Shown: one piece after another, positions 20,239 through 44,467 of the stretch
How the letters are laid out: each line of letters starts with the position of its first letter
Position numbering within the stretch: the first letter of the stretch is position 1
From: Streptomyces sp. CG 926
GTDB lineage: Bacteria; Actinomycetota; Actinomycetes; Streptomycetales; Streptomycetaceae
DNA: 64,000 nucleotides
Reading direction: 5' to 3'
Assembly: GCF_003148825.1 (NCBI RefSeq)
Contig: NZ_QGGZ01000005.1
Location: forward strand, 310,001-374,000
Notes under the pieces: generated by a model
Told to the model about the DNA's origin: nothing
The model's database searches: none
The model's input: the letters and a program-made list of their open reading frames with translations, nothing else
Made by a program: the position numbers and the translations under genes

Positions 20239-21099
20239 TCAGAGGTACTGGGCGAACTCGTCGAGGGTGCGCAGGACTTCCGGCTTCGACGCCGACGGGA
20301 GCTGGAGGACGACCTCCTCGATGCCGAGGTCGGCGTAGTGGCTCATCTTGCCGGGGGTGGGCCGGACGGCGTACGGGACCACCCGGAGGGACTTCGGGTC
20401 GCGGCCGGCGGTCTCCCAGATCTGCCGCAGCACCGGGAGGGACTCGCCGAGGCCGCCGCCCCCGATGGGGAGCCAGCCGTCGGCGTGGTCGGCGACGGCC
20501 GCGAACAGTTTGGGGCCGGCCGCGCCGCCGATCAGGGTGCGCGGGCCGTACAGGGGGGCGCCGGGGCCGAGTTGGCGCGGGGGTTGGACCGGCTTCGGGT
20601 AGGCGGTGCTGGCCTGGACGGAGCAGTACTGGCCGACGTACGCGGTGGGCTCGGGGGACCACAGGGCGCGCATCAGCGCCATCCGGTCCCGGACCAGGTC
20701 GCGGCGGGTGCGCCACTCGACGCCGTGGTCGGCGGCCTCCTCGACGTTCCAGCCGTAGCCGATGCCGAGGGTGAGTCGGCCGTGGGAGAGGTGGTCCAAG
20801 GTGGCGACCTGCTTCGCGAGGTCGATCGGGTCGTGCTGGGCGACCAGCGTGATGCCGGTGCCGAGGTGCAGCCGCTCGGTGACGGCGGCGGCCTGGCCGA
20901 GGGCGACGAAGGGGTCGAGGGTGCGCCCGTACATCTCGGGGAGCTCGCCGCCCATGGGAGCGGCGGTGTCGCGGCTGACCGGGATGTGGGTGTGCTCCGG
21001 GAGGTAGAGCCCGGAGAAGCCGCGCTCTTCGAGGCTGTGGGCCAGCCGGACGGGGGAGATGGTGCGGTCGGTGAGGAAGATGGTCGTGGCGATCCGCAT
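20239..21099 (-). CDS. LLM-class F420-dependent oxidoreductase
   Basis: A 286-residue luciferase-like monooxygenase-fold protein. Characteristic elements are the start IATTIFLTDRTISPVRLAHSLEERGFSGLYLPEHTHIPVSR, then GTGITLVAQHDPIDLAKQVATLDHLSHGRLTLGIGYGW and, later, IGGAAGPKLFAAVADHADGWLPIGG. This subgroup in actinomycetes generally uses coenzyme F420 rather than FMN. The ATG was preferred because GGAGG precedes it; a GTG four codons upstream overlaps that site. The substrate is unknown. The F420 link fits the FO synthase gene at 24.5 kb. Confidence 0.88.
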   Translation of the reverse strand: MRIATTIFLTDRTISPVRLAHSLEERGFSGLYLPEHTHIPVSRDTAAPMGGELPEMYGRTLDPFVALGQAAAVTERLHLGTGITLVAQHDPIDLAKQVATLDHLSHGRLTLGIGYGWNVEEAADHGVEWRTRRDLVRDRMALMRALWSPEPTAYVGQYCSVQASTAYPKPVQPPRQLGPGAPLYGPRTLIGGAAGPKLFAAVADHADGWLPIGGGGLGESLPVLRQIWETAGRDPKSLRVVPYAVRPTPGKMSHYADLGIEEVVLQLPSASKPEVLRTLDEFAQYL

Positions 21100-21188
21100 G
21101 TGTTCTGGCACCTCCGAGACGTGGGACCCGCCACGGTACGGGCTGGGCCCTCGAATGTTGAGGGGGCGTCAGGTGCCGGGGGCGTGGT

Positions 21189-23051
21189 TCAGCCGCGCGG
21201 GTAGCGGGCCAGCCAGCCGGGGGAGGCGGCCGTCGGGCTGTGCAGGCTCGGGCCCTGGGTCATCTCCAGGGCGAAGTCGTCGGCGAGTTCCAGGAGGGCG
21301 GAGCGGCCTTCGAGCTCGGCGAGCCAGGCGGCAGGGAGGGCCGTCTCGCCGTGCAGGGCGCCGAGCAGGGCCCCGCACAGGGCGCCGGCGGCGATGGAGT
21401 CGCCGCCGTGGTTGACGGCGAGGCGCAGGCCCTGGGGGACGTCCTCGGCGACCAGGGCGCAGTAGACGGCGGCGGCGAGGGCGTCGGCGGCGTCGGATCC
21501 GTCCGCCTCGTCGGGGGCGAGGGCCTCGACGGCCTCGGGGCCGGGCGAGCCCTGGGTGACGGCGGCCAGGGCGCGCTGGAGGGCGTCCGTGACGGGCCGA
21601 TGGCCGGGGCGGGCGCCCAGCAGACCCAGGGCGCGCTGGACGGCGGAGTCGAGGGAATCGCCGCGGACCAGGCCGTGCACGATGACGGCGACGGCCCCGG
21701 CCGACAGGTGGGCGGTGGGATGGCCGTGGCTCTGGGCGGCGCATTCGACGGACAGTTGGAGGACGAGGGTGGGCTCCCAGCCGACCAGCAGGCCGAAGGG
21801 GGCCGAGCGGGTGGCGGCGGCCGCGTCCTGGGCGGTGGGGTTCTTCGGCTGGTCGAGGGTGCCGAGGACGTCGTCGGCGAAGCCGGTCAGGCAGGCGCGG
21901 TGCGGGGCGCGGCGGGCGTAGAGCCATTCCTCCCGCGCGAGCCAACCGTTGTCCTTGCGGCGCTCGTCGGGGCCCCAGTCGTGCTGGGTGGCGGCCCAGC
22001 GCAGGTACGCGCGGTGCAGGTCGGTGGGCGGGTGCCAGGCGCCGGTGTCGCGGCGCACGTGGGCCCGTATCAGCCCGTCCACGGTGAACAGGGTGAGCTG
22101 GGTGGCGGCGGTGACCCGGCCGCGGCGGCCGAGGGCGGGGGCCGGACCGGTCAGGCCGTCCGGGCCGTGGGCCTCGCGCAGGGCGGCGAGGGAGAGGCCG
22201 GCGGCGGGTGCGCCGAGGGCGTCGCCGAGGGCCGAGCCTAGGAGGGTGCCGCGGACCCGGCTACGGAAGTCCTGCTGCTCGACGCGGCCCCACAGACCGG
22301 TGGCGACGCCGCGGCCGAGCGTGCGGTTCGCCCCGGCGGGGGCGGGGGTCCGGCTGCCGGTGCCGGTGCCGTCCCCGGCGGCGGCCGCCCGCCCCGGCCC
22401 ACCGGCCACCGGGCCGTGCCCGACCGCGCCGGTCGCCTGCCCGTGGCCACCCGTGGGTCCGGTGGCACCCGCAGGGCCTTGGCCGCCTGCAGGGCTGCGG
22501 CCGACCGCGCCGGTGGCCCCGGCAGGTCCGAGGCCGCCTGCGGGAGTGGGGGTGCCTGCGAGGCCAAGGCCGCCTGCGGGAGTGGGGGTGCCTGCGAGGC
22601 CAAGGCCGCCTGCGGGGCCGTGGCCGACCGCGGCGCTGGCCAACGGGCTGTGGCCGAGCGGGCCGGTCGCCTGACCGTGGCCACCCGAGGGGCCGGTGGC
22701 ACCCGCAGGGCCTTGGCCGCCTGCAGGGCTGCGGCCGACCGCGCCGGTGGCCCCGGCAGGGCCTAGGCCGGCCAACGGGCCCTGGCCGAGCGGGCCGGTC
22801 GGGTGGCCGTGGCCACCCGTGGGGCCCGTGGCAGGCGCAGGGCCTTGGCCGCCTGCTGGGGCTTGGTTGCCTGGCGGGTCCGTGGGGGCGGGGAAGTGGA
22901 GGGAGAGGGCCGGGTTCTCGCCCGGGCCGGGGGTGGTCGACGCATCGGCAGCGCCGGCGGAGGTCGCGGGGCCGTGCCCGACCGGGGTGCCCGCCGGGCC
23001 GGGGCCCGCGCCGCCGCCGCTCGTGTCGTTCGTCGCGTTCATTGCGTCCAT
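21189..23051 (-). CDS. ADP-ribosylglycohydrolase-fold protein with collagen-like N-terminal tail, probable pseudoenzyme
   Basis: A 620-residue protein. Residues about 20-255 are a low-complexity Gly/Pro/Ala tail with internal repeats (GLAGTPTPAGG twice; GAVGRSPAGGQGPAGATGP twice). Residues about 258-610 have the ADP-ribosylglycohydrolase fold, beginning RVRGTLLGSALGDALG. The two metal-ligand motifs expected in active enzymes are altered: TDDTQ is TAATQ at 314-318, and the late GDSD reads GDSI at 550-553. Hydrolysis of ADP-ribose from proteins is therefore doubtful, and a binding role is more likely. An ATG three codons downstream (23042) is an alternative start. No transport signal is seen. 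Confidence 0.8.
   Translation of the reverse strand: MDAMNATNDTSGGGAGPGPAGTPVGHGPATSAGAADASTTPGPGENPALSLHFPAPTDPPGNQAPAGGQGPAPATGPTGGHGHPTGPLGQGPLAGLGPAGATGAVGRSPAGGQGPAGATGPSGGHGQATGPLGHSPLASAAVGHGPAGGLGLAGTPTPAGGLGLAGTPTPAGGLGPAGATGAVGRSPAGGQGPAGATGPTGGHGQATGAVGHGPVAGGPGRAAAAGDGTGTGSRTPAPAGANRTLGRGVATGLWGRVEQQDFRSRVRGTLLGSALGDALGAPAAGLSLAALREAHGPDGLTGPAPALGRRGRVTAATQLTLFTVDGLIRAHVRRDTGAWHPPTDLHRAYLRWAATQHDWGPDERRKDNGWLAREEWLYARRAPHRACLTGFADDVLGTLDQPKNPTAQDAAAATRSAPFGLLVGWEPTLVLQLSVECAAQSHGHPTAHLSAGAVAVIVHGLVRGDSLDSAVQRALGLLGARPGHRPVTDALQRALAAVTQGSPGPEAVEALAPDEADGSDAADALAAAVYCALVAEDVPQGLRLAVNHGGDSIAAGALCGALLGALHGETALPAAWLAELEGRSALLELADDFALEMTQGPSLHSPTAASPGWLARYPRG
22461..22760. repeat. direct repeats inside the Gly/Pro/Ala tail
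   Basis: A 66-bp segment is repeated exactly at 22461-22526 and 22695-22760. Between them, two copies of a 36-bp unit lie in tandem, starting near 22529 and 22565. All are in frame and encode the collagen-like tail, so they probably expand and contract by slippage or recombination. Confidence 0.85.
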
Positions 23052-23327
23052 CCCCGGCACCGCGCCCCCCGCTGACCAGTCCACTCGATGCCCGGCGTCC
23101 CTACCCGTACCCGCCGCGCACGCGAACCCGCACTGTAGTGGACAGGATCGGTCGAAACCGGAAGTGGTCGGCCACGGGACGCATAAGTGAGCGTAGATCG
23201 GCCAGAATCCGAACACTTCCAGCCGTGACCTGGAGCATGGCACGTTTTGCCAGTCGCCTTCGAGCCGGTCGTTTTCGGTCACGCCTCGTTCATCGGACGT
23301 TCTCCGTGGCCGCCCAGCCTCGGAGCC

Positions 23328-44389: not shown

Positions 44390-44394
44390 GTCCG

Positions 44395-44467
44395 TGCCCT
44401 CGGCAGGATTCGAACCTGCGACACCGGCTTTAGGAGAGCCGTGCTCTATCCCCTGAGCTACGAAGGC
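44395..44467 (-). tRNA. tRNA-Arg (anticodon CCU)
   Basis: A 73-nt cloverleaf on the minus strand. The 7-bp acceptor stem pairs GCCTTCG with CGAGGGC, the anticodon loop is CTCCTAA (anticodon CCT, decoding AGG), and the T arm has GGTTCGAATCC. The discriminator base is A and CCA is not encoded. D-arm bases (AGCTCAGGGGATAGAGC) fit. Codon AGG is rare in high-GC genomes. Confidence 0.93.

Follow-up and report, generated by a model that had tools for sequence, protein, structure and literature searches.

Does a protein with the fold of an ADP-ribosylhydrolase (ARH) still act on ADP-ribose once its metal ligands have changed and, if it does not, what keeps it in the genome? The question is raised by a gene on the minus strand of the window, the whole 64,000-nucleotide stretch of Streptomyces sp. 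CG 926 analyzed here (contig NZ_QGGZ01000005.1, positions 310,001 to 374,000), and by its orthologues across the genus. From the sequences compared, the protein appears to be a bacterial pseudoenzyme with the DraG/ARH fold that selection has maintained, and the forms that lost the metal site probably neither hydrolyze nor bind ADP-ribose. Our strongest claims are that the metal site was lost, that this loss is widespread, and that selection has preserved the remainder; that the current role is one of binding or scaffolding outside the old cleft we hold to be probable, with some reserve. The wider reading, to which we give a probability of roughly 0.45, is that a pseudo-ARH family found across most Streptomyces would have given up both catalysis and substrate binding, since its essential function already lay in a non-catalytic contact through surfaces beyond the cleft, with the old site drifting and one sub-clade carrying a fast-evolving repeat tether.

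The gene and its fold

The open reading frame (ORF) runs from 23051 to 21189 and consists of a repetitive N-terminal extension followed by the domain under study:
21189..23051, minus strand: whole gene, 620 amino acids plus stop, with an ATG at 23051 (start codon uncertain)
21192..22280, minus strand: ARH-fold domain, residues 258-620, from the Pfam match and the AlphaFold2 model

Residues 268-574 match the ADP_ribosyl_GH family (PF03747) with an E value of 7.7e-55 and 187 bits, against a cut-off of 26.2. The AlphaFold2 model of the domain, which is a prediction from an input alignment of 59 rows and not a solved structure, has an all-alpha ARH fold with a predicted local distance difference test score (pLDDT) of 84.5 and a predicted template modelling score of 0.90. 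The closest structure match of this model is 1t5j (Z 36.9, root mean square deviation 2.2 over 292 residues). The profile match and the predicted fold together bear out the family named in the first-pass annotation, which was made from the sequence alone.

Loss of the metal site and its spread among orthologues

The same annotation had picked out two altered motifs and had taken the di-metal site to be probably absent. Both motifs are exact, as seen by motif and by paralogue alignment:
22098..22112, minus strand: TAATQ, residues 314-318, once a TDDTQ metal site
21393..21404, minus strand: GDSI, residues 550-553, once a GDSD metal site

By motif, positions 315, 316, 551, and 553 correspond to D55, D56, D302, and D304 in human ADPRH, Asp residues reported to act in Mg2+ coordination and catalysis (PMC7390403). 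In the window protein, positions 315, 316, and 553 are Ala, Ala, and Ile where aligned active-looking ARHs have Asp, so that D551 is the only one of the four metal Asp left, short of what a dinuclear site needs. Both metals are reported to be required for correct substrate positioning in active ARHs, and the substitution D56N to abolish ARH1 activity (PMC7050489). Four paralogues of the same genome have Asp at all four metal places (4/4 in the alignment), as do 20 of 20 fetched members of a second Streptomyces ARH family that is about 50% identical. With three of four ligands changed and the alignments with these DDDD paralogues in agreement, the di-metal site is, as supposed, probably absent.

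The gene is widespread. From an even sampling of the genus, 119 of 121 Streptomyces genomes had a match (only a weak one in G051, E 3.2e-5). In the family Streptomycetaceae the count was 199 of 200 genomes, although one genus (g3) and a few others had no match better than E 1e-57, and their hits are probably paralogues. Twelve of 15 genomes from other families of the order were matched, and the matches listed there were weak, one at 155 bits and the rest below 42. The 248 loci collected yielded 220 open frames above 400 bits and 206 distinct domains, which keep all four metal Asp in 39 cases, three in 2, two in 2, one in 50, and none in 113; at most one is thus left in 163 of the 206. We call a form lost when it has at most one of the four Asp, intact when it has all four, and partial when it has two or three. 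On this definition, 110 of the 121 evenly drawn genomes could be classed, the other 11 comprising two without a hit, the one with a weak hit, and eight whose match was unfetched or split over contigs or frames. The first-pass annotation had proposed asking whether Streptomyces orthologues keep the same substitutions, and ligand loss proved to be common to 90 of the 110 classed genomes, against 17 intact and 3 partial.

A quick protein tree, built without the metal columns from 152 representatives plus 6 outgroup rows, united 115 of the 116 lost rows in a single clade with a Shimodaira-Hasegawa-like approximate likelihood ratio test (SH-aLRT) support of 100, and left 32 intact representatives outside it, including those of other genera of Streptomycetaceae. 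A row on a long branch with the residues AHHA (L040) stood apart in this tree and fell inside the lost clade in a more careful one, whose 64 rows comprise 23 lost (every fifth), 32 intact, 5 partial or odd, and 4 outgroup forms. There the lost clade, L040 included, had bootstrap/SH-aLRT support of 100/99, and four changes were needed in all, which we read as the main loss plus three partial losses (L218, L236, and L042/L043). A pseudoenzyme, as first proposed, is supported by a loss that is widespread, forms one clade of the protein tree, and is accompanied by no conserved replacement ligand.

The partial forms are of some interest in themselves. L042, L043, L218, and L236 have DDAD, DGAD, DAAD, and DGDD at the metal places and lie outside the main lost clade, and theirs is probably a later, independent erosion.

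Constraint on the rest of the protein and a candidate binding surface

To compare the classes we used 39 intact and 162 lost domains, with L040 and the four partial forms excluded. At 114 positions, residues are at least 95% identical in both classes, and the mean column entropy is 0.60 bits in the intact and 0.71 bits in the lost forms. Outside 20 pocket positions, the median ratio of nonsynonymous to synonymous substitution rates (dN/dS) is 0.10 for 26 intact pairs and 0.16 for 150 sampled lost pairs, showing that the rest of the protein is under purifying selection, slightly relaxed in the lost forms.

Thirty-two residues are invariant in intact and lost orthologues and not in the paralogue. 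They are densest at 339-378, with 11 in 40 amino acids, a density that random placement reached in 0.0125 of 2,000 draws. A conserved stretch in this part of the protein is a candidate binding surface:
21909..21989, minus strand: conserved stretch, residues 355-381, putative binding surface

Here W359, G360, P361, D362, R364, G369, W370, L371, E375, W376, L377, Y378, and R381 are 97-100% conserved in intact and lost forms, and the WGPDER motif (359-364) is kept in 96-100% of the lost ones. Residues 357-367 have a pLDDT below 50 in the AlphaFold2 model. Invariance in a loop that the fold does not fix in place would be expected of a site that binds a partner, which makes this loop the best candidate for one. 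Intact orthologues conserve the loop just as well, so that the non-catalytic job would predate the loss.

The partner might also be an active ARH paralogue of the same cell, with which the dead protein would pair as a regulatory subunit and which it would control. The genome does encode active-looking paralogues, at least four of its 8 PF03747 hits being other proteins with Asp at all four metal places, and in trypanosomes AdoMetDC is reported to be activated by a catalytically dead paralogue (PMC5201418). However, the closest active paralogue family is about equally frequent with intact and with lost forms (4 of 17 and 19 of 90 genomes, respectively; Fisher p 0.76). ARH enzymes, moreover, act mostly as monomers, and we regard a regulatory subunit as unlikely. 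By the same count, an active paralogue as the reason for the loss is unsupported.

Four PF03747 genes stand in a row elsewhere in this genome (contig C11, 122010-127000; L002, L005, L006, and L007). One frame in L007, an 833-amino-acid ORF, contains SDDAEW and has VADSAPAL where GDxD is expected, and may be a second, separate pseudo-ARH.

Drift of the former cleft

If ligand binding had been retained after catalysis was lost, the residues that hold the substrate would be expected to persist. We define a released position as one at least 90% fixed in the 39 intact and below 50% in the 162 lost domains. There are 36 of these, including 284, 285, 315, 316, 407-411, 413, 414, 518, 519, 523, and, from the GDSDS motif, 551, 553, and 554. 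Besides the metal site, they mark three former elements of the cleft:
22197..22202, minus strand: former Glu flap, residues 284-285, A-G in the window protein and E-F in 39 of 39 intact forms
21810..21833, minus strand: former phosphate/ribose loop, residues 407-414, AQDAAAAT in the window protein and SKGCG(T/A)VM in intact forms
21483..21500, minus strand: residues 518-523, with G518 kept, W519 changed to S, and E523 to D in the window protein

The metal and Glu-flap positions derive from the ARH architecture (Rack et al. 2020, PMC7050489); 407-414 and 518-523 would, from the position of their motifs, contact the ligand. The window protein has A284 in place of the flap glutamate, and the positions that once formed the pocket differ from one lost form to another. 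Some replacements are shared by most or all of the 162 lost forms, namely T487 to V (162), M319 to L (152), 286 to L (152), and E486 to P (141), which may reflect repacking of a closed cleft.

The first-pass annotation had suggested that the protein may bind ADP-ribose as a sensor, and a sensor of ADP-ribose or another nucleotide, with catalysis gone and ligand binding retained, has something in its favor. The fold is predicted to be kept, R415 and P418 near the old loop are fixed in 162 and 160 of the 162 lost forms, G518 is present in the window protein, and catalytically inactive macrodomains are reported to act as readers (PMC10789625). Yet a sensor would be expected to keep its substrate residues, whereas the cleft itself drifts: the Glu flap (284-285), the SKGCGxVM loop (407-411 and 413-414), and G518, W519, and E523 have eroded along with the metal ligands that place the distal ribose, and vary in the lost set. 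The metal requirement for substrate positioning noted above argues in the same direction, and we disfavor a sensor as improbable.

More doubtful still is that the protein remains an enzyme, either by obtaining metal ligands from elsewhere or through a new chemistry. Caution is in order, as the annotated pseudoenzymes USP53 and USP54 are reported to have proved active (PMC12037411), and D551 is kept in 44 of the 162 lost forms, including that of the window. However, no acidic, His, or Cys residue is newly conserved across the lost set, in which the largest acidic gains are D409 (62%), D382 (56%), and E588 (86%, with 41% acidic already in the intact forms) and His is partial at position 307, and the old pocket positions vary; replacement metal ligands are on this count rejected. 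A pseudogene-like relic, kept by recency alone and on its way out, would account for the loss of the cleft, the repetitive tail, the slightly raised dN/dS, and the additional partial losses beyond the main clade (L218, L236, and L042/L043), but it is scarcely credible for a gene that is matched in 119 of 121 genomes, whose dN/dS away from the pocket is about 0.16, and whose product has 114 positions fixed in intact and lost forms alike.

The N-terminal extension

Ahead of the domain, the window protein carries an extension with the following features:
22287..23051, minus strand: N-terminal extension, residues 1-255, rich in Gly, Ala, Pro, and Thr, repetitive, long but of varying length in the sub-clade
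22459..22526, minus strand: second copy of a 68-nucleotide exact direct repeat (first copy 22693-22760, spacing 234)
22531..22616, minus strand: 36-bp tandem array, 2.4 copies, 100% identical
23130..23144, minus strand: conserved block TGTCCACTACAGTGC ahead of the tail start, a putative promoter

Its 255 residues include 76 Gly, 48 Ala, 37 Pro, and 26 Thr. The first-pass annotation described a collagen-like tail encoded by 66-bp and 36-bp direct repeats. The repeats are real and the 36-bp unit holds, but the longer one is an exact repeat of 68 nucleotides, not 66. A second exact DNA repeat of 50 nucleotides has a spacing of 36, and in 200 codon shuffles the longest exact repeat was at most 19 nucleotides; the copies are recent. 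We reject the comparison with collagen, as the longest uninterrupted G-X-Y run is 6 triplets, a length reached in 97 of 1,000 residue shuffles and so near the shuffle expectation.

Translation could begin at any of several codons: a GTG 263 residues or an ATG 260 or 257 residues before D261, or, also in frame, TTG at -168 or -124 or GTG at -46. What is translated of the tail may thus fall short of 255 residues. We take it to be a translated, probably disordered, and fast-changing extension. It belongs to the sub-clade of the window protein and is not a feature of the family. In four tail-free orthologues (L020, L057, L150, and L230), the likely start, preceded by a Shine-Dalgarno-like sequence, is 11-17 residues before the DFRxRVRG anchor of the domain. 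Outside the sub-clade, an upstream stop within 60 residues of the anchor leaves no room for a long tail in 102 of the 162 rows whose upstream stop was available (another 37 of these rows are open for over 100 residues and were left unjudged), while inside it none of 35 rows has a stop within that distance (minimum 71, median 152). By the start chosen, the extension is 48 residues in L012, 121 in L010, about 232 in L011, and 260 in the window protein.

The block TGTCCACTACAGTGC is conserved upstream of the gene in the sub-clade, and CTACAGTGC is also found near the intact orthologues L227 and L231. The block CTACAGT is exact in 34 of 205 rows, 5 of them outside the sub-clade, where it lies 89-102 nucleotides before the anchor, and 29 inside it, where the distance is 97-867 nucleotides. 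These distances indicate that extra DNA sits between the promoter-like element and the domain, and if TGTCCACTACAGTGC acts as a promoter, it would put the tail within the transcript.

Gene neighborhood

A luciferase-like monooxygenase gene lies 77 bp downstream of the ARH gene on the same strand (20239-21111), and a tyrosine phosphatase gene lies upstream. Of 8 neighboring frames scanned with Pfam, 7 match non-toxin families and 1 matches none. In a crude clustering of neighbors from 84 loci with at least 9.5 kb, in 72 of which the gene caller recovered the ARH gene itself, the most frequent were an HTH-type (helix-turn-helix) regulator (56/84) and FbiC (54/84). FbiC is a more common neighbor than the monooxygenase or the phosphatase: among loci with 3.5 kb or more of upstream sequence, it is nearby in 14 of 17 intact, 44 of 67 lost, and 0 of 2 partial ones. 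Luciferase-like monooxygenase genes occur elsewhere in 3 intact loci.

Two further observations concern the surroundings of the gene. At 21 loci of some Streptomyces (L053, L122, L155, and others), a same-strand gene sits directly upstream of the ARH gene, and its product by eye starts like a P-loop ATPase; no such gene was seen beside the ARH gene in the window. The window also contains a tRNA-Arg gene (anticodon CCT) at 44394-44467 on the minus strand.

Proposed history of the family

Taken together, these results would fit a history that begins with an active single-domain ADP-ribosylhydrolase in an inferred ancestor within Streptomycetaceae, which already had a second, non-catalytic job, most likely the binding of a protein partner via surfaces beyond the catalytic cleft. 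One early Streptomyces branch would have lost its dinuclear metal site together with the Glu flap and the ADP-ribose loop, after which the cleft would have drifted and repacked (as in the change of T487 to V), while the fold and the non-cleft surface, including WGPDER...GW...EWLY..R (359-381), would have been maintained by selection. In the sub-clade of the window protein, a repeat-driven, probably disordered N-terminal extension would have been gained, perhaps as a passive linker or tether.

Several results weigh against this history. An FbiC tree of 58 full-length rows needs 3 changes, at least 2 of them forced, and has no single lost clade, and one of 92 partly fragmentary rows needs 6; these trees, though weakly supported, disagree with a single lost clade, and at species level the inheritance of the loss may not have been purely vertical. 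Release is not confined to the pocket, as 16 of the 36 released positions fall outside the 20 pocket positions, and the higher dN/dS of lost than of intact pairs also fits mild relaxation. The ratio of nonsynonymous to synonymous codon differences at the 20 pocket positions, 9:117 in intact and 605:518 in lost forms, is circular because these positions were picked for varying in the lost forms. The low pLDDT at 357-367 may reflect a weakness of modelling from 59 rows of 70-93% identity. In the tail, the GC content by codon position is 0.82, 0.80, and 0.84 (0.82, 0.57, and 0.95 in the domain); a preference at the third position is present, but the periodicity is weak for a translated sequence. 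No constant partner gene was found in the 84 clustered loci. Where the flank was long enough to judge, a same-strand luciferase-like monooxygenase follows the ARH gene at no more than 3 kb in 0 of 38 intact, 31 of 160 lost, and 0 of 4 partial loci, and the tyrosine phosphatase is a neighbor in 0 of 17 intact, 13 of 67 lost, and 0 of 2 partial loci. As neither gene is kept across the family, we reject an operon or partner drawn from the neighborhood.

The FbiC tree of 58 rows also divides the ARH sub-clade of the window protein into two groups, which suggests either exchange or two fbiC versions in these species.

Among the matches listed from the open-licence PMC literature, no title or abstract describes a bacterial pseudo-ARH family. 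The name of the profile is ADP-ribosylglycohydrolase, and in most classed Streptomyces genomes the sequence says that the protein is hardly a hydrolase. The presence of intact and dead orthologues within one bacterial family makes what a pseudoenzyme retains after catalysis directly testable, and antibiotic producers would have one candidate fewer for the enzymatic reversal of ADP-ribosylation. By its place near fbiC, we presume SCO4435 of S. coelicolor to be probably an orthologue of the window protein. SCO4435 is listed as an uncharacterized DraG-like/ARH homologue and a putative hydrolase (PMC5087735, PMC9411070).

Comparison with known systems

The nearest counterpart is vertebrate ARH2/ADPRHL1, which is treated as a suspected pseudo-ARH (PMC7050489, PMC7390403). 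This cardiac protein belongs to the ARH family, has three of its four metal Asp changed and its cleft altered, is kept in vertebrates, and is described as giving no comparable activity in biochemical assays (PMC7390403). Its altered cleft loop, however, is reported to be conserved from frog to man and to be needed (PMC7390403), whereas the former cleft of the Streptomyces forms varies, and the Streptomyces protein is bacterial and represents a separate loss. DraG of Rhodospirillum and Azospirillum and the DraG-like proteins share the fold (2woc, Z 34.6 over 280 residues) and the PF03747 family, in which the window protein also has intact-site orthologues, but in the window protein the metal site and ADP-ribose loop are changed, and it scores 58.6 bits against the cut-off of 337.05 for the DraG equivalog TIGR02662, well outside that group.

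Two further systems show the ARH fold at work inside an assembly. The Ycf2-FtsHi motor (8xks_Q and 8xqw_G, Z 33.5 and 31.6) and the trypanosome mitochondrial small subunit assemblosome (6sga_FP, Z 24.4) belong to eukaryotic organelles and are compared here by fold only. The Tri1-type ARH immunity proteins (6dre and 6drh) differ from the window protein in the model NF041672, for which it scores 20.5 against a cut-off of 490 bits and falls outside the family, in its changed active site, and in its neighborhood, where none of the 7 matched families is a toxin; their fold matches with Z 36.3 over 292 residues. Tri1, itself an ARH with an extended N-terminus, additionally neutralizes its toxin by binding to it, a known case of non-catalytic work by an ARH.

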